A DNA stretch of 33,844 nt, from NCBI GenBank assembly GCA_012837715.1, contig DUQR01000019.1:1-33844 (forward strand), written 5' to 3'. The notes under the pieces were generated by a model, which saw only the letters and a list, made by a program, of their open reading frames with translations, searched no databases and was not told where the DNA came from. This document shows, one piece after another, positions 1,919 through 13,714 of the stretch. The translations under genes were made by a program, and so were the position numbers. Each line of letters opens with the position of its first letter. Position 1 is the first letter of the stretch. The stretch is from Bacillota bacterium. Its GTDB lineage: Bacteria > Bacillota > UBA4882 > UBA10575.

Positions 1919-4654
1919 TTAGTCGGTGTCTTCTTTAACACGCACTTCACGGACGACCACGTTATCGACGTAGTAATCAACACCCGCACCTGGTCCTTCC
2001 GTATATAATTCCAAGGCTTGTAAGGTTCCTTCTACATTGAGCTCATATGTGCCACTGATTAGGGTCCATTCTTCATCATTGATGGTCTTCGAATCCACCC
2101 AGGAATAATTATCGCCCCGGTCATCCGTCTTTTTGATACTAAAGCGGCCGGCATCATTCATTTTGTTTTTTAGTTTAAGCCAACCGGATATCTCATAAGT
2201 CCGACCGGGCTCCATCACCGCCGTAAGATCCTGGGCAATTCCCTGCCAAGTTTCGCTTCGGTTCGTGACTAACGCCGCGTAGGTTCCGGTCTGGGCCGTT
2301 TCATCGGTAACCATGATCGCGGTATCCTCCCCAAAATTAAACCAGCCTTCGGTTGTTCCCCTTTCGAACCCGGGGTTCTGGAGAAGCGAGGGTTCATTGC
2401 CCCAGCAGAGCTGGTCTTTAACATAACCGGGCGTCGCCGCCCAGTCGACCATTCCCTCCGCTTGTGGTTGGAAAGAAAAATCATTATCCTGTTGATAAAA
2501 GCCTCCTAAGTTAGTAATAACTCCGCCAACCGCTAGCTTTTCCCCGGGTTTCAAGTCTCCGGCCGCCTCGGTAAAACCGATCTCTAAATAATAGTTGGCG
2601 TCTGGAGTCACGCCGGTCATCCGCACCAAAGCAGCGGAAATTACCGCAGCCGGAAGGGAACCGCCGCTACACGTAAACTCCTGGCCTCCCGTTCCCTCAA
2701 AAGTGTAATAGTATCTAAGCTTTACCTCAGCCAGGTTAACCGGTACTTCTCCGGTGTTAACGATCGAGAACTTCAGTTTTATTTGATCAGTGTTCGTGTT
2801 TGGGGAAGCCGTCTCCATTTGGACTTTGATCTTTCCGGAGGGTAGTTTTACCGGAGCCTTAAACTCTAACGACTCCACCTTGCAATAAGCGCCCTCATCC
2901 CACGGGGTATAGACTAAATAGAAATCATTGACGCCCCGTATCTGTTCCGTAGGTAAAACAACGGTTTTCCAGCTTTCGCCGGTCGTACCCTCTTCCGCTA
3001 AAATAGAATATCGGGCCAAGGGCAGACCAAGGACCGGACCATGCAAGACTAATTCTAATTTACCCCGCCCTTGCGCGGCAACCCGTAATTCACAGGTGGC
3101 GGTTCCGTTGCCAAAGTTATAATTATGATAAGCCGTATAGGCGCCTTTGTTTTTAAAGACAACCACCCGGTTTCCTCCGGCATTTTCCTCCAGCTCAATA
3201 CCGTTTTGATCGTCATAATTCGCTGCCGTCAACGGAGAAAGGAGTTCCCGGAAACTTAATTCGCCGGGTAGTTCATGGGTGGCGGCAATAAAGGTAGTGA
3301 CGCTTTTGGCCTTTAAAACCGCGGTGAACTCTCCTTGGGCCACCGGAACAGGCGCTAATTTAGCCAAATCTTCCGTCCCTGAAGTCCGATAGGGAATAAC
3401 CGCTTGGAGTTGAGGAAAATGCTTTAAAGCAAACTTGATCCTCTGCTCATGCTCGCCACTGTTAATTGCCACCAAGGCGAACTGGCCGCTGGTCTCATCC
3501 TTAAAGGCCGTTACCGAAAGATCGGCCCCCGGAGAAGCTTCTGTATTAAGCCGCACGTAGCCGGGACGGACAAAACGGCTATAGTTGCCAATGGTATACA
3601 ACCGCTTGAAGGTAGTGAAAGTTTTGAGTGTAGGATCAATATGGATTAAGGCTTCCCCCGGTTTATACGCTGCTAACCACCAGAACAACCAGGCATTAAC
3701 TTCGGTGATGGTTAAGTGATCATGCAGTAACTTGGCATATTTTAAGCCATCGTCAATGCTGCCGTCGTTAAAACCGATATTGGAGACCTCCGTCTGCCAG
3801 ATGGACTTATTTAGGCTTTTGGCTACGGGAAAGGGTTGCGCTTTAAAATCGTAAGCATGGGTGCCAATAATATCTACCCCCTGCCGTGCTTCCTCATCAT
3901 ACAAAGTGGCCAGGGCATAGTCTTCACCAAAGTTCATCCCCTCCGGAATAATCACTTTAACCGTGACCCCTTCCCGTTTCAGGGTGGGCGTTAGGTTGTT
4001 TTTGATGAAGTCCCGCAACTCTTCCCCAGTCCAGCGGCAGGAAGAATAACTTGTGGTTAAATCCGGTTCATTCGTCGGTGAAATGGCGTAAAGATCAAGG
4101 CCATGATGCTCCTTGTACCCCTTCACGTATTTGGCTAAATACTCGGCAAAGGCTTGATATTTGTCGGGACGAAGTTTTCCCCCGTTAATCACACTATTGT
4201 TCGTCTTCATCCAGGCCGGAGGACTCCAGGCCGTACTGATAAACCGGGTGCACCCGCGCCGCCGAGCTTCTTGCATCAACCAAATCTGATCTTCATCACC
4301 CGACCAATTCCAGACTCCTTCTTCCGGTTCAATACTGGGTGTCGGTCCGTCGATTTTTTCGCCCCAGTCCCCACCATCTCCGATGATGTTCCGAACAATA
4401 CTCAAACCGACCCCCTTTTCCTGGGAAAAGAGCAGATCGAGAATGAGTTCCTGATCCCGTGCGGGAAAGGTCATTAAATTGGCGGCTTGGTGAAAAGCGC
4501 CGGAGCCTCCAAACCCTTCAATGACTTGCCGTTCATCTTCCCAATCCACGGTACAAATAGGAACCGCCGGCTGAGCGCCCCTTACCGTTATACAAACAAG
4601 AATGAAAAAGAAAACCGTAAGCACTAGGCTCTTTTTCTTGTCCGCTTTTCGCAT
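1919..4654 (-). CDS. Secreted multidomain GH30 glycoside hydrolase with CBM6-, CBM3- and CBM4/9-like modules (xylanase-like)
   Basis: This 911-residue extracellular polysaccharidase begins with a signal peptide (charged start, hydrophobic core about residues 9-22, likely cleaved near residue 26). The GH30 barrel follows at about 35-365 with its side beta-sandwich to about 458. SPTNEPD carries the acid/base Glu196 and WQTEV the nucleophile Glu289. Residues about 475-600 look like a CBM6-type beta-sandwich (AYTAYHNYNFGNGTA), about 606-752 are a CBM3 (ending in the typical CWGNEP), and about 754-905 are a CBM4/9-like module (LLQNPGFERGTTEGW). The arrangement suggests attack on cellulose-associated xylan. 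The arginine-containing loop that makes B. subtilis XynC-type enzymes glucuronate-dependent is not evident after FWWLAAY, so the exact subfamily and specificity are open. Ribosome binding site GGAG is 10 bases upstream. A cre-like site overlaps the promoter, and the gene has its own terminator; it appears to be a lone accessory gene. Confidence 0.93.
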   Translation of the reverse strand: MRKADKKKSLVLTVFFFILVCITVRGAQPAVPICTVDWEDERQVIEGFGGSGAFHQAANLMTFPARDQELILDLLFSQEKGVGLSIVRNIIGDGGDWGEKIDGPTPSIEPEEGVWNWSGDEDQIWLMQEARRRGCTRFISTAWSPPAWMKTNNSVINGGKLRPDKYQAFAEYLAKYVKGYKEHHGLDLYAISPTNEPDLTTSYSSCRWTGEELRDFIKNNLTPTLKREGVTVKVIIPEGMNFGEDYALATLYDEEARQGVDIIGTHAYDFKAQPFPVAKSLNKSIWQTEVSNIGFNDGSIDDGLKYAKLLHDHLTITEVNAWLFWWLAAYKPGEALIHIDPTLKTFTTFKRLYTIGNYSRFVRPGYVRLNTEASPGADLSVTAFKDETSGQFALVAINSGEHEQRIKFALKHFPQLQAVIPYRTSGTEDLAKLAPVPVAQGEFTAVLKAKSVTTFIAATHELPGELSFRELLSPLTAANYDDQNGIELEENAGGNRVVVFKNKGAYTAYHNYNFGNGTATCELRVAAQGRGKLELVLHGPVLGLPLARYSILAEEGTTGESWKTVVLPTEQIRGVNDFYLVYTPWDEGAYCKVESLEFKAPVKLPSGKIKVQMETASPNTNTDQIKLKFSIVNTGEVPVNLAEVKLRYYYTFEGTGGQEFTCSGGSLPAAVISAALVRMTGVTPDANYYLEIGFTEAAGDLKPGEKLAVGGVITNLGGFYQQDNDFSFQPQAEGMVDWAATPGYVKDQLCWGNEPSLLQNPGFERGTTEGWFNFGEDTAIMVTDETAQTGTYAALVTNRSETWQGIAQDLTAVMEPGRTYEISGWLKLKNKMNDAGRFSIKKTDDRGDNYSWVDSKTINDEEWTLISGTYELNVEGTLQALELYTEGPGAGVDYYVDNVVVREVRVKEDTD

Positions 4655-4894: not shown

Positions 4895-5359
4895 TCAGAG
4901 ATGGTATGGTTCACCCCGTAAAATTTTGAAGCCACGGTAGATCTGTTCCAATAAAAGCAAACGGAATAACTGATGGGGGAAAGTAAGCGCGGAAAAAGAA
5001 AGCCGGTCATCAGCCCGGGCGATCACTTCCGGATCAAGTCCCGCCGCCCCGCCGATCACAAAACAAACGGTTTTTCCCTCTCTTTCCCGGGTAGCCAGCC
5101 ATTGGGCGAATTCTTCGGAGGTTATGACCTGTCCTTGTCGGTCGCAGACAGCCACGTAAGCAGAAGTTTTCAGGACACCGCTTATTTTTTTTCCTTCTGC
5201 TTGTATTGTCCAAGCCGGGTCCCGTCCTAAAGGAAAATCGGGAACTTCAATGATCTCCAGTTTTGTGTATGCCCGCAGCCTTTTTTGGTATTCGGCGATC
5301 CCTTTCCGCAGATAATCCTCTTTGACTTTACCAACCGCGATAAGCTTCAGATGCAACAT
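4895..5359 (-). CDS. rlmH: 23S rRNA (pseudouridine1915-N3)-methyltransferase RlmH
   Basis: This 154-residue protein is a complete SPOUT-class methyltransferase of the RlmH (YbeA/YydA) family, which uses S-adenosylmethionine to methylate pseudouridine 1915 in helix 69 of 23S rRNA. The start MLHLKLIAVGKVKEDYLRKGIAEY, the SAM-knot segment FVIGGAAGLDPEV, the LSFSALTFPHQLFRLLLLEQIYR block and the C-terminal RGEPYH are all diagnostic. The last residue is Leu where Lys or Arg is usual in the family. GAGG lies five bases before the ATG. It follows htrA by nine bases and is probably cotranscribed with it, as is common near the origin in Bacillota. Confidence 0.96.
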   Translation of the reverse strand: MLHLKLIAVGKVKEDYLRKGIAEYQKRLRAYTKLEIIEVPDFPLGRDPAWTIQAEGKKISGVLKTSAYVAVCDRQGQVITSEEFAQWLATREREGKTVCFVIGGAAGLDPEVIARADDRLSFSALTFPHQLFRLLLLEQIYRGFKILRGEPYHL

Positions 5360-5368
5360 TCTTCCCTC

Positions 5369-6514
5369 TTACTCCAGCGGGCCAGCGGTAATCTCTACCT
5401 TAAACTGGCGGTTTCCTCGGTATAGCTCCATGGTTACCCGGTCACCAACCTTTAGATCGAGACCGGTAAAGTTGGCGCCTTCCGTGATCTTTTGTCCATT
5501 AATGGCCACAATGACATCACCGGCTTTCAGCCCGGCTTTGGCCGCCGGACCGGAGAAGACACGGGTGACCAAGAAACCCTGATCTACCGGCAGATCGATC
5601 CGATATCTCTTTTCCAGCAGCTTCTTATTGGCTTCATCAAAGGGCACATAACTAATGCCAATTGCCCCGGGACGCCTTAATTTCCCTTTAATGATCTGGT
5701 CGGCAATTTCCCGGGCTTTGTCGATGGGAATGGCAAAACCAATGCCTTGGGCTTCCTTGATAATCGCCGTGTTGATCCCAATCACTTCCCCTTTACTGTT
5801 CAGTAAAGGACCTCCGGAATTTCCGGGGTTAATCGAAGCATCGGTTTGGATCAAATCACGCAGCGCTGACCTTTCACTCGTCGCGATACTACGGTTTACG
5901 GCACTAACCACCCCGGCCGTAACCGTGTTTTTTAATCCTTCCCCAATCGGATTGCCAATGGCGATCGCCAGTTGTCCCACACGAAGGTTGGAAGAAGTTC
6001 CGAGCTTAGCAGCAGGATAATTATCCCCTTCAATCTTTAAAACAGCCAAATCATTGTCGGGATCGGCCCCGACCAATTTAGCCAGGAGTTCCCGGCCATC
6101 ATTTAAGACCACGATGATCTCTTCCGCCTTCTCGATGACATGATAATTGGTGAGAATATGCCCGTCTTGGCGGTAAATCACTCCGGAACCCAGGCCCTGC
6201 ACCGGTTGGTAACCGACTAACCCGAAGAAAAAATCTTTCACTTCAACCAGACTAGTCGTGGTAATCATCACCACACTAGGCCCTACTTTGTTCACCACTT
6301 CAATGGTGGCATGTTCATAATCGGTAATCTGCAAGGGCGCCGGTTCTTTTTCCACCGCTTCCTGGGGCGCCGTTGGGGGTACCACTAGGGCTTGACCTAA
6401 ACCGGTAAAACGCACCGCCAATAAAATAAACAGACCACCCATAAAAGCCGCGCTCAACAGTAAAATAAAAAGACTTGTCCGGGAGGAAGGATATTCCCCT
6501 CGGTATTTCGTCAT
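5369..6514 (-). CDS. Membrane-anchored HtrA/DegP-type serine protease (S1C) with one PDZ domain
   Basis: This is a 381-residue quality-control protease. A short cytoplasmic tail is followed by one membrane helix (about residues 15-34), a linker, the trypsin-like domain and a single C-terminal PDZ domain (about 285-375). The triad is intact: His125 in TNYHV, Asp155 in DNDLAVLK and Ser233 in GNSGGPL. The active domain faces the outside of the cell, where it would degrade or refold damaged proteins. GGAGGT is seven bases before the ATG at 6514; an in-frame GTG nine bases upstream lies inside that ribosome binding site, so the ATG is preferred. It sits between rlmH and the YhaN-like gene. The general HtrA call is firm; the specific paralog name is not. 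Confidence 0.95.
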   Translation of the reverse strand: MTKYRGEYPSSRTSLFILLLSAAFMGGLFILLAVRFTGLGQALVVPPTAPQEAVEKEPAPLQITDYEHATIEVVNKVGPSVVMITTTSLVEVKDFFFGLVGYQPVQGLGSGVIYRQDGHILTNYHVIEKAEEIIVVLNDGRELLAKLVGADPDNDLAVLKIEGDNYPAAKLGTSSNLRVGQLAIAIGNPIGEGLKNTVTAGVVSAVNRSIATSERSALRDLIQTDASINPGNSGGPLLNSKGEVIGINTAIIKEAQGIGFAIPIDKAREIADQIIKGKLRRPGAIGISYVPFDEANKKLLEKRYRIDLPVDQGFLVTRVFSGPAAKAGLKAGDVIVAINGQKITEGANFTGLDLKVGDRVTMELYRGNRQFKVEITAGPLE

Positions 6515-6613
6515 CTTTTCCACCTCCGAAAGGGGGTTGCCACCGTTTTCCCTATTTTCCCCGGAAAAAGTTTATTTACTACCCTGGTCCAATCGCCGCC
6601 GGGGCCATTGGGG

Positions 6614-8431
6614 TTAATGGGTTGAATAAGCCAATTCCCTCACCCGGGAGATAATTTGTCCGTCCGCGAAATCCTCGGCCAACAACTGGCGTAAAGCTTG
6701 CTCGGCTTTGGGCATTAACCACGGGAAAAAGTCATCGAATAACAGTAAGGGACGGCTTTTTCCCTTTTCCCAAACCGACTTTGCCAGGGCCAGCCGAAAA
6801 GCCAGATGCGCCCATGGCCGCCGGGGAAAAACAGCCTCCTCCGTACACCAGTCGGTCCCGGAGCCTACCATAAAATGTAATGTATTTCCTTCCAGACGGG
6901 GTTTTATGCTTTGATAGTCTCCTGCGGTCAACGCGGAAAGATAACGTCCAGCATCCCGGTATACCTTCGCCAGGGTGGAAGCTTCTCCACTTACTAATAC
7001 CTGAGCCTTCGTTTCCTCGGTTTTCAGTTGTTCTTCCTGCTGCTCTCTTTTGGCCAGTAAAAGACGGCGTGCATCTTCCGGCGTTGCTCCACCTACCTTT
7101 TTTAAGAAAGCGGCCAGTTCTTCCTCGGCCTGTCTTCTCCGGGCTTTCCAATCCGCCAAGGCCTTTACGTTTTCTTGCACCGTCTCTATATCTTCGGTTC
7201 CGGCCAAGGCGAGGAGCTTCTCTCTTTTCTGGCGGAGTTCTTCTTCCCTTTGTCGAATCCGATCCAATTCCTCCAGCGAGTACTGGTCCTTTCCCTTGAA
7301 CAGAGCAGGCGTTTCTAGACGCGATAAATCATTTTGGTACTGTTCCAAGAGGGTTTTTTCTTTTAAAAAATCTTCCGGCTTCTTGTTTTTTAACAAAAAC
7401 CTTAATTCTGCGCGGAGGCGCGCTAAATCTTCCAAGATCCGGCCCATGCGTTGTTTAATCTCAGCTTCCTTCTCTTTACTCCCCAAGCGGTGCCAATAAC
7501 TCTTCCGACTAAATTGTTCCAAGGCTTCCTCTTCCCTCTGTAAACGCTGATTCAGTTCAGCCCGGTATTTTAACAAGCGGATAACTTTTTGCTCCGTTTC
7601 AGCCGTATAAAGGAAGGGATCGAAAGAAGCAATCTTTTGACGCAAAGTTGCCACTTCTGTTTCCAAAATTCTCCTGGTCTCTACTTCTTCCCGCAGTTGT
7701 TCTTCGTAAAAACTCTTTTCCAAGGCCACCGCGGTATATTCCCGCGCGGTTAAGGCCAATAAATCTTCTCCTTCGGGCGAAAGAAACTTTTCATAATCCC
7801 GGTAATGAGCTTCCTCCGCTTTGATCCGCTCGACTTCTGCTTGGTATCGGTCCAATTCGGCAATTAGTCCGTCGATGTCCACTCGTTCTGCGGCCATCTT
7901 TTGTTGCTGTTCTTCTTCTCCGTCCGTAGAGACCATCAGTAATTCGGTAAAATCCTCATACAGCCTTATTTGCCGGGTATGGTCCCGCACCAGAGGCGCG
8001 TTTTGGTCTAAAAGTAATTTCTCCTTTTGATAAAAGGCGATGACCTGAAAATCCAAGGGATTCAAGATCCCCATCTCCTTATAGAGCAGATCCATTAAGA
8101 CCATCGGAGATAAAGAAGACAACCGTTTATCTTCCAATTTAAAGATTTCCAAGGTTTCCTGGGCAAAATGACGACCAAGCAAGTACTGGCCTTCGCCGGT
8201 TTCCACCATCATGGCCGCTTGGTATTCGTCTTTGCCCCGTACTGGAATAAAGCGTTCTTTTTTTAGCCGTTGCGGAGGAGAAAACCCGAACAAGAGCGCC
8301 ATGATCACTTCGTTCACCGTTTCCTCCCCTTCTTCCTCAGGAAAAGGAATCTCCGTCCAAAAGGGACGGAAATCGTATTCCCGGTTGCGCAGGGCGCCAA
8401 AACCTTTAACGATCAGTTTTTTTATGCGCAC
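6614..8431 (-). CDS. YhaN/SMC-like coiled-coil protein with a degenerate ATPase site
   Basis: This 605-residue protein has the layout of YhaN/Rad50/RecN-type ABC ATPases: an N-terminal MRIKKLIVKGFGAL strand region, about 350 residues of Glu/Lys/Arg-rich coiled coil (roughly 170-500), and a C-terminal lobe with a Walker-B-like LLLFDD at 562-567. The P-loop expected at residues 30-38 (family pattern GPNEAGKST) reads FPEEEGEET, so the essential Lys is Glu36 and the next Ser is Glu37. The ABC signature before the AFRLALAK helix is also gone (it reads VFPRRPWAH). ATP hydrolysis by this chain alone is therefore doubtful, and a structural or pseudo-ATPase role is inferred. The frame is intact and codon use looks normal. 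It starts at a GTG 12 bases after the gyrA stop codon, suggesting translational coupling to gyrA. Confidence 0.8.
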   Translation of the reverse strand: MRIKKLIVKGFGALRNREYDFRPFWTEIPFPEEEGEETVNEVIMALLFGFSPPQRLKKERFIPVRGKDEYQAAMMVETGEGQYLLGRHFAQETLEIFKLEDKRLSSLSPMVLMDLLYKEMGILNPLDFQVIAFYQKEKLLLDQNAPLVRDHTRQIRLYEDFTELLMVSTDGEEEQQQKMAAERVDIDGLIAELDRYQAEVERIKAEEAHYRDYEKFLSPEGEDLLALTAREYTAVALEKSFYEEQLREEVETRRILETEVATLRQKIASFDPFLYTAETEQKVIRLLKYRAELNQRLQREEEALEQFSRKSYWHRLGSKEKEAEIKQRMGRILEDLARLRAELRFLLKNKKPEDFLKEKTLLEQYQNDLSRLETPALFKGKDQYSLEELDRIRQREEELRQKREKLLALAGTEDIETVQENVKALADWKARRRQAEEELAAFLKKVGGATPEDARRLLLAKREQQEEQLKTEETKAQVLVSGEASTLAKVYRDAGRYLSALTAGDYQSIKPRLEGNTLHFMVGSGTDWCTEEAVFPRRPWAHLAFRLALAKSVWEKGKSRPLLLFDDFFPWLMPKAEQALRQLLAEDFADGQIISRVRELAYSTH

Positions 8432-8443
8432 AGCCTCACCCCG

Positions 8444-10894
8444 CTATTCGCCGTCTTCGCCTGCTTCGTGCCTACTGATTACCCGCGCCACCGCGACGAT
8501 CCGGTCTTTCTTTTCCAAATGCATGATTTTAACGCCTTGCGTGTTCCGGCCCATCGAAGAAATATCGTTCACCGTAACGCGGATCACTAAGCCGCTGGCA
8601 TTAATCAGCATCAGTTCATGTTCGGGGTAAACGACACCCCCACCAATCACCTCTCCGGTTTTGGCCGTTTGGTTCAATGTTTTGATCCCGAACCCGCCGC
8701 GGGATTGTGCCCGGTATTGATCAAAGGGGGTCCTTTTTCCGTAACCTTGCTCTGTGATCACCAACAGCTCCGCATCGCTCCGAATTACGTCCATCCCCAC
8801 AACTCGATCATTCGCCCGAAGGTTAATCCCCCTTACCCCCCGGGTATTCCGGCCCATTGGTCTGATCTCCGACTCGTGACAGCGGAGCGCTTGACCTTTC
8901 CGGGTAAACATGATAATCTCCCGGGTACCGTCGGTTAAACGCACGCCAATCAACTCATCACCCTCATCCAAGGCAATCCCGATTATACCGCTTCTCCGGT
9001 TATTGGCAAATTGGGAGAGGGCGGTCTTTTTTACTACCCCCTTTTCCGTGCACATCAGGAGGTACTGATCTTCCCGGAACTCCTTCACCGGAATATAGGT
9101 ATTAATCCTTTCGTCCGGTTCCAATGGAAGCAAATTCACGATGGCCATCCCCCGGGCCTGCCGGGAAGCTTCCGGAATATCAAAGCCCCGCAGTTGGTAT
9201 ACCCGGCCGCGGTTGGTAAAGAATAAGACATTATCATGGGTGGAAGTAATAAAGAGATGTTCAACAAAATCCTCTTCCTTCGTATTAATCCCCGTGATTC
9301 CTTTTCCACCCCGCCGTTGACTCTTATAAGTGTTGATGGGAAGCCTTTTGATATAACCATTATGGGTAATCGTGACCACGATATCTTCATCGGCGATCAG
9401 GTCTTCGATCGAAATCTCCTCTTCATTGCGGGCAATCTCTGTCCGGCGCGGATCGGCGTATTTTTGTTTAATCGCCAACAACTCCGTTTTCACGACGCCC
9501 ATGATCTTCGCCGGATCACCCAGCAGTTCCCGGTAATAGCCAATGGTCTTTTGTAGTTCGGCATATTCCTCTTCCAACTTCTCCCTTTGTAAGCCGGTTA
9601 AACTTTGGAGCCGCATGTCCAAAATAGCCTGGGCTTGCCGTTCCGTTAAACCAAAATTCTTGATCAAACCCTCCCGGGCGATCTCTACCGTCCGGGAAGA
9701 ACGGATCACCTTAATCACAGCGTCAATATGGTCAAGGGCAATACGTAAACCTTCGACGATATGCGCTCGTTCTTCCGCTTTATCCAGATCAAAACGGGTC
9801 CGGCGGGTGATAATCTCCCTTTGGTGCTCAAGGTAATGATAGATCAAATCCCGCAACCCCAAGACGCGCGGTTCATTGTTGACCAAGACAAGCATAATGG
9901 CGCCGAAAGTATCTTGAAGCTGAGTATGTTTATACAGCTGATTCAGGAGGATATTCGCATTCGTGTCCCTTTTAAGTTCGATCACGATCCGCATCCCGGA
10001 ACGGTCCGATTCATCCCGCAGATCGGTAATTCCTTCGATTACCTTCCCGCGCACCAAGTCGGCTATTTTCTCAATTAGCCGCGCCTTATTCACCTGGTAA
10101 GGAAGTTCGGTGACGATAATCTGGCTTTTTCCATTACTAAGGGTTTCAATCCTGGTCTTTGCCCGGACCTTTATACTTCCCCGGCCGGTGAGGTAGGCAT
10201 CACGGATCCCGTCGTGCCCTAAAATAATCCCGCCCGTGGGAAAATCAGGCCCTTTCACGATCTTCATCAAGGCTTCCGTATCCGCCTCCGGATCATCGAT
10301 CAATAAGATCGCCCCGTCAATAATTTCTCCTAAATTATGGGGGGGGATATTCGTGGCCATCCCGACCGCAATCCCCGCGGAACCGTTCACCAATAAATTA
10401 GGAAAGCGGGAAGGTAAAACCGCCGGCTCGTCCAGACTCCCATCAAAGTTGGGAGCGAAATCAACGGTCTTCTTCTCAATATCCGACAACATCTCCACGG
10501 CCAGTTTGGAAAGGCGCACTTCCGTATAGCGCATCGCCGCCGGTGGATCCCCATCCACCGAGCCAAAGTTTCCATGCCCGTCGACCAGCGGATAACGGTA
10601 AGAGAAATCTTGTGCCATCCGCACGATCGAATCATAAATCGCGGCGTCACCATGGGGATGATATCTCCCCATGACATCCCCAACAATCCGGGCCGATTTT
10701 TTATAAGGTTTATCCGAGGTCGTCCCCGATTCATACATTCCATAAAGAATACGACGGTGCACCGGTTTCAGCCCATCCCGGACATCCGGAAGGGCCCGGC
10801 CAACAATAACGCTCATTGCATAACTCAGGTAAGAGCGTTTCATCTCCTGCTCAATCTTGATCGGAATTACTTTTCCGTCTCTTTGTTCTGCCAA
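8444..10894 (-). CDS. gyrA: DNA gyrase subunit A
   Basis: GyrA is the DNA-cleaving and rejoining subunit of gyrase, the enzyme that introduces negative supercoils. The start is placed at a TTG at 10894 because GGAGGG lies six bases upstream and this puts the catalytic tyrosine (in MRYTEV) at residue 123, the same number as in B. subtilis; a longer frame from another TTG at 10948 exists. The protein is then 816 residues. The C-terminal wrapping domain contains the GyrA-box QRRGGKG, which separates it from topoisomerase IV ParC. At the quinolone hot spot the motif is [10 protein letters not shown]: Ala84 replaces the usual Ser while the Asp at 88 is kept. It lies 105 bases downstream of gyrB. 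Confidence 0.98.
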
Positions 10895-10999
10895 AAATAT
10901 CCCTCCATTGGCTCCATCTTCTTTCCTGAGGGAATCGCATAAGACCAAAGTCTTTATTTGACCCCTTAACCGGCTTCGGGTTTACCCTCCTCTGTGTCT

Positions 11000-12919
<1,920 letters not shown>

Positions 12920-13255: not shown

Positions 13256-13714
13256 TTAACCAAAAGTTTTTCGTCTTTCGTGCGCATAGTAAAAATTGGT
13301 AAAGGCCTTTTTTAAATCGGAATCTTTTATTTCCGTAAGCGCCGCCGGTAGAGTAAGATCCGAAGCGGGGAGAAGTTTACCCTTAGTTTTCCCTTTTTGG
13401 TCATCAACATCAACCGCCGACAGGGCCCCTACCGTCACTCTAACCCCGCGGATGTTTTTTTTCCCTAGATAGCGGCGGTATTTATTAATAATCTCTTTTT
13501 TAAAAAAAGTCAAGTTGTAAGCTAAGGCCGGATCCGGAGTTTTAATCCATAAAATCCCGTTTTTGACCTGGCTGACCTCGGTTTTATCCTTTAAAGCCTC
13601 CCCAATCACTTGTGGCCAGTAATAGGCGGCTAATCCGGTTTGCATCGGAGAGTTTTGTGACCAGTTTGTTAAAAAACCCGTAATAATCTGAGCTAACGGT
13701 GTCACTTTACGCAC
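13256..13714 (-). CDS. DciA-like protein (DUF721), candidate replicative helicase loader
   Basis: This 152-residue protein fits the DUF721/DciA family. DciA proteins load or help the replicative helicase DnaB in bacteria without DnaC or DnaI. Visible features are the N-terminal helix-strand core with YWPQVIGEALKDKTEVSQVKNGILWIKTPDPALAYNLTFFKKEIINKY, typical of the KH-like fold, and a basic C-terminal tail. The GTG start overlaps the recF stop codon by eight bases, so translation is coupled to recF. Its position next to dnaA-dnaN-recF supports a replication role. The family assignment is good; actual helicase loading is an inference. Confidence 0.8.
   Translation of the reverse strand: MRKVTPLAQIITGFLTNWSQNSPMQTGLAAYYWPQVIGEALKDKTEVSQVKNGILWIKTPDPALAYNLTFFKKEIINKYRRYLGKKNIRGVRVTVGALSAVDVDDQKGKTKGKLLPASDLTLPAALTEIKDSDLKKAFTNFYYAHERRKTFG

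Follow-up and report, generated by a model that had tools for sequence, protein, structure and literature searches.

A Rad50/YhaN-type pseudo-ATPase encoded directly behind gyrA in one family of uncultured Bacillota

What does a Rad50-like protein do once its ATP motifs are gone? Rad50, SMC and YhaN proteins are understood as ATP-gated machines. The window analyzed here, a 33,844-nucleotide stretch of Bacillota DNA, carries a gene behind gyrA whose product, here called X, was originally predicted from the letters alone to be a YhaN/SMC-like protein with a P-loop converted to acidic residues. Table 1 lists the features of this locus.

The locus and the lost nucleotide motifs

The reading frame of X runs from a GTG start through 605 amino acids with zero internal stops, in agreement with the intact 605-codon frame first reported. 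The gene order dnaA-dnaN-recF-dciA-gyrB-gyrA-X-htrA-rlmH places X in the replication-origin cluster; dnaA, dnaN, recF and gyrB are named from position and general knowledge and are presumed to be these genes. The gap between gyrA and X is identical in length, 12 nt, in all eight genomes of the window's genus, and it contains the ribosome-binding-like sequence GCGGGGTGAGG. A hairpin with an 11-bp stem (window 8374-8348, minus strand) resembles a terminator and lies within the first 90 bases of X, before the P-loop codons. Its reading as an attenuator was rejected because the stem is not kept in orthologs.

Elsewhere in the window, a DciA-type helicase loader gene (13256-13714, minus strand) lies between recF and gyrB. 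A 911-aa glycoside hydrolase (1919-4654, minus strand), GH30/GH59-like with CBM6, CBM3 and CBM4_9 modules, is flanked by rlmH and a glucosaminidase near the origin. It occupies the matching place in G003, G004 and G007, and not in G001, G002 or G005.

Table 1. Features of X and its surroundings, in window coordinates
Feature	Position	Strand	Evidence
X, pseudo-ATPase of 605 aa with a Rad50/YhaN-type head that an antiparallel coiled coil interrupts	6614..8431	-	ORF, fold, orthologs, dN/dS
gyrA, directly upstream of X	8444..10948	-	16/16 genomes
gyrB	11000..12913	-	Location ahead of gyrA; conserved throughout the family
gyrA-X gap, 12 nt, Shine-Dalgarno-like GGGGTGAGG	8432..8443	-	Sequence comparison
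HtrA-type protease gene, downstream of X	5369..6523	-	Absent at the same place in G010
rlmH	4895..5359	-	ORF and neighbourhood comparison
Degenerate Walker A loop codons, residues 28-38, IPFPEEEGEET	8318..8350	-	GK[ST] in 0/15 orthologs vs 19/19 intact relatives
Invariant patch peculiar to X, residues 112-128, LMDLLYKEMGILNPLDF	8048..8098	-	Ortholog alignment
Coiled-coil tip, residues 309-319, RKSYWHRLGSK	7475..7507	-	Site of a transmembrane hairpin in most intact relatives
Degenerate ABC signature, residues 531-539	6815..6841	-	0/15 orthologs vs 17/19 intact relatives
Walker B-like LLLFDD, residues 562-567	6731..6748	-	D-[DE] in 5/15 orthologs vs 19/19 intact relatives

Motif counts compare 15 aligned copies of X with 19 intact YhaN-type relatives. 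The Walker A loop of X aligns gap-free with VVGPNEAGKTT of its closest intact relative, in genome G018, and with IYGPNEAGKST of others, so that FPEEEGEET stands against the intact pattern GPNEAGKST. Residues 35-37 read GEE in X and GKT or GKS in the intact relatives, again without gaps. This alignment bears out the proposed register, in which the catalytic Lys becomes Glu36 and the Ser or Thr becomes Glu37. The spacing and flanking residues are conserved as described, including the beta-1 and beta-2 strands around the loop and the subsequent ALLFGF helix. No GxxxxGK[ST] is hidden in other reading frames near the loop in the 15 orthologs.

A conserved conversion to acidic residues is not supported. 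The residue pair 36/37 is EE, DE, AE or TE in the window's genus and QE, QQ, QR, KT, LK or GK in sister genera; Glu36/Glu37 is typical only of the window's genus, and the loss alone is conserved. Loop charge varies from EEEGEET to neutral or basic sequences elsewhere, such as KKGKEKT in G011. Genus g3 has AGKT, but it sits one residue away from its place in the intact proteins, with its Gly out of register.

The remaining motifs are also lost. FPRRPWAHL stands in place of the ABC signature LSxGTxxQ, whose absence had been recognized from the sequence and extends to all 15 aligned orthologs. The Walker B-like LLLFDD is indeed present in X as reported, but it is not a maintained motif, since so few orthologs keep D-[D/E]. 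The D-loop Asp occurs in 1 of 15 X orthologs versus 19 of 19 intact relatives. The Q-loop and switch fail in X as well and are less sharply defined even in the intact set (10/19 and 17/19). As a group, X orthologs do not keep what characterizes YhaN (AAA_27) ATPases, namely a GxxxxGK[ST] Walker A, the signature, Walker B and the D-loop.

Distribution, age and selection

X is found in 16 of 16 genomes of its family, which are MAGs of uncultured Bacillota from six genera, and always directly after gyrA, confirming the tight linkage that had been claimed; in G014 the contig ends inside X. The family MAGs are recorded as Bacillota, Firmicutes and, in one case, Hydrogenispora sp., and no cultured member was found here. 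Among 13 other genomes of the class, gyrA was located in 11, while G016 and G026 gave only a ParC-like match. No X stands behind gyrA in these genomes wherever the contig reaches far enough; the G018 contig stops at gyrA. A contig scan for X returned only this family and four weak matches, and both of the two inspected had normal P-loops. Matches outside the family among 398 genomes of the phylum likewise had intact P-loops, and the idea that X is a widespread family was rejected for this reason.

Phylogenetic analysis recovers X as monophyletic with a bootstrap of 100. The motif loss therefore either dates back at least to the origin of the family or reached completion on its early branches. 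Outside the family, the nearest relative is an intact 765-aa protein encoded in G018, a genome of this class, on a contig that lacks gyrA. This YhaN-like protein (L041:6239-8536, G018:C151) has a transmembrane hairpin, and no SbcD gene adjoins it within the stretch read.

Among pairs whose dS is not saturated, the dN/dS of X is about 0.12-0.27 (Nei-Gojobori); in the two pairs that were also divided by segment, each head half and the coil proved to be constrained. Mean pairwise identity of the P-loop is 0.68 in intact relatives, the highest of the tested segments, and 0.26 in X, among the lowest; because the two sets differ in overall divergence, this contrast in rank counts more than the raw identities. 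Right behind the loop, X has a well-conserved helix (0.63). A decaying pseudogene or an assembly artefact could explain the missing catalytic motif, but this explanation is refuted for practical purposes by 16 genomes in six genera without internal stops, by the low dN/dS and by the lack of a hidden P-loop. The unbroken frames and the empty alternative frames led to the rejection of sequencing error or frameshift, and the dN/dS to that of recent decay. Orthologs with a normal GKST loop, which the original prediction had named as the evidence that would overturn it, did not appear. X is a maintained YhaN/Rad50/SMC-type pseudo-ATPase, as predicted: its motifs are lost, yet it remains under selection.

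Fold, invariant patch and coiled-coil tip

An AlphaFold model of X built from 14 orthologs (mean pLDDT 85.5) shows a Rad50/SMC head on a coiled coil. Among solved structures, Rad50 heads match it best (Z 20.1, 263 residues, 4.0 Å, 17-18% identity), and the N- and C-terminal lobes form one head joined by the coiled coil, as in Rad50/SMC-type ABC heads. From sequence alone, a profile of X orthologs matches the C-terminal part of the Rad50 head with an E value of 4e-14. X itself has no significant family in Pfam, NCBIfam or PADLOC, all Pfam matches being below cut-off, and its G010 ortholog passes the AAA_27/YhaN cut-off in the genome search (29.7 bits vs 22). The tree places X beside intact YhaN-type proteins. 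Taken together, the Rad50 fold match, the profile match and the G010 match identify X as a Rad50/YhaN-type protein. Comparison with a viral structure library turned up nothing more specific than general SMC/Rad50 matches. The fold matches include SMC/Rad50-like chains from Lamassu complexes, and an anti-phage defence role was rejected because no PADLOC match appears at E values up to 1.

A patch at residues 112-128 sets X apart, with a mean identity of 0.70 in X versus 0.24 in intact relatives. It contains the invariant residues L112, M113, E119, N124, P125, D127 and F128 and the motif NP[L/I]DF, and it may be the surface that a nucleotide-independent adaptor uses. At the coiled-coil tip, most intact relatives have strong, mostly paired hydrophobic peaks. 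In a comparison that sets aside the intact relatives G059 and G053, the maximum 19-residue hydropathy is 0.88-1.66 across X versus about 2.0-3.0 in most intact proteins. The alignment locates the missing hairpin between RKSYWH and RLGSKEKE, and no transmembrane-type peak occurs anywhere along X in the 19-residue hydropathy profile. X is predicted to be soluble. Neither the hairpin loss nor the patch, nor the separate intact YhaN elsewhere in the genome, was visible to the original prediction. Additionally, most orthologs are mildly acidic (pI 5-7), which does not favour broad DNA binding.

Possible role and comparison with known systems

The ATP motifs and the membrane segment are lost, yet natural selection persists, so X is probably a structural protein and not an ATP-driven machine. 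The likeliest picture is a soluble scaffold that works independently of nucleotide and is produced along with gyrase. Its ancestor would have been an ATP-hydrolysing, membrane-anchored YhaN/Rad50-type protein. In the common ancestor of one Bacillota family, the gene for it would have settled permanently after gyrA within the replication-origin cluster. There, X would have given up its transmembrane hairpin and its capacity to bind ATP (Walker A, Q-loop, signature, Walker B, D-loop and switch), while its head fold and coiled coil would have stayed under purifying selection. No nucleotide would be needed to hold the head in shape, a partner would dock on the invariant surface near residues 112-128, and the coiled coil would space or dimerise two heads. 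The position 12 nt behind gyrA and the conserved ribosome-binding site suggest that X is probably made from the gyrBA operon, and this probable co-production makes gyrase or gyrase-bound DNA near the origin the likeliest partner. The leading reading, a former YhaN/Rad50 protein fixed behind gyrA and now serving as a soluble adaptor with that partner, is put forward tentatively, at slightly less than even confidence. Sequence, prediction and comparison show that the motifs were lost, how old this loss is, that X is under selection, which fold it has and that it is linked to gyrA; the gyrase partnership is suggested by linkage only and is the weakest step. The originally suggested role, a DNA- or protein-binding scaffold related to gyrase or repair, is likewise an inference, drawn from gene linkage and fold. 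A stricter version, in which X is an SMC/Rad50-like structural protein dedicated to gyrase and attaches, without nucleotide, to gyrase or to its DNA crossings close to the origin, is unlikely; if it is true, chromosomes can be served by the Rad50/SMC fold with no ATP cycle at all.

Linkage to gyrA within one family may reflect only common ancestry and a convenient promoter. X could be structural with a function unrelated to gyrase, such as a nucleoid or cell-division scaffold or an adaptor for its HtrA-type neighbour, and merely use the gyrBA promoter. This alternative is less probable, although it deserves serious weight: in nearly all genomes checked, the gene after X is htrA, and housekeeping genes of diverse function crowd the origin cluster. 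In one genome pair X has 67% identity and GyrA 92%, so X evolves much faster than gyrase and the two are not in tight lock-step. However, in G010 the htrA linkage is broken while X remains with gyrA. HtrA acts outside the cytoplasm, and X has no membrane segment, which speaks against an HtrA adaptor. A remodelled, non-Walker pocket might still let X bind nucleotide, a proposal that draws on the retained ABC-type head fold, the conserved helix after the loop and the shifted AGKT of genus g3. It is highly improbable, as all the other ABC motifs have disappeared as a set and the loop ranks near the bottom for conservation within X, with a charge that varies between orthologs.

X might also be a regulatory or structural partner of an SbcD-YhaN nuclease complex, for example a dead heterodimer half or a decoy. 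YhaN (AAA_27, PF13514) is the SbcC-like partner of YhaO/SbcD, and degenerate subunits are well known in ABC-type dimers. On a different contig from X, the window genome carries an intact SbcD-YhaN pair, with orthologs of this YhaN in 12 of 16 family genomes; G010, G014 and G015 have a different, distantly related intact YhaN adjoining an SbcD-like gene. An intact YhaN thus stands beside an SbcD-like gene in most genomes tested, which lends this idea some appeal, but it is doubtful on several counts. X lacks both Walker A and the signature, making a composite ATP site with YhaN impossible. The YhaN proteins form two clades (G000/G006/G007/G008/G011 and G010/G014/G015, bootstrap 100 each) while X is orthologous across both; the supposed partner would have been exchanged, which argues against X as a dedicated subunit of one YhaN. 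Moreover, G009 has no YhaN above cut-off in the genome search, and the linkage of X is to gyrA and in no case to sbcD.

Among known systems, YhaN is the closest group to X in the tree, and both share the head fold, the beta-1 motif R[IL]xxLxIxGFG, the ALLFGF helix, the LTxGxY and ALRLAL helices and the coiled-coil layout. Unlike YhaN proteins, which have roughly 640-1000 residues, X has 605 and lacks the nucleotide motifs, the transmembrane hairpin and an adjoining SbcD gene; in place of an SbcD/YhaO phosphoesterase, it has gyrA before it and, in nearly all genomes, htrA after it. Rad50 requires ATP for head engagement and dimerises through a CxxC zinc hook. X resembles Rad50/SbcC as its best solved-structure match (Z 20, 17-18% identity), but it has no ATP motifs and zero CxxC in its sequence. 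The Lamassu protein LmuB, an SMC/Rad50-like fold match, has a naturally weakened ATPase in which the Walker B Glu is changed to Gln (PMC10586767). In LmuB one motif is altered within a defence operon, whereas X has lost all motifs, lies in the origin cluster and has no PADLOC match.

No description of such a gyrA-linked pseudo-ATPase was found in open-access text, and X points to an undescribed gyrase- or origin-linked protein. Having long retained the fold next to gyrA after losing its ATP-binding elements, this bacterial family offers a natural test of what the Rad50/SMC fold does without ATP. The family's active YhaN proteins have a variation of their own: in the five genomes read (L046:8059-11049 in G000:C3, and L107-L110), Walker A has Ala for the first Gly, as APNETGKST, APNESGKST or APNERGKST.
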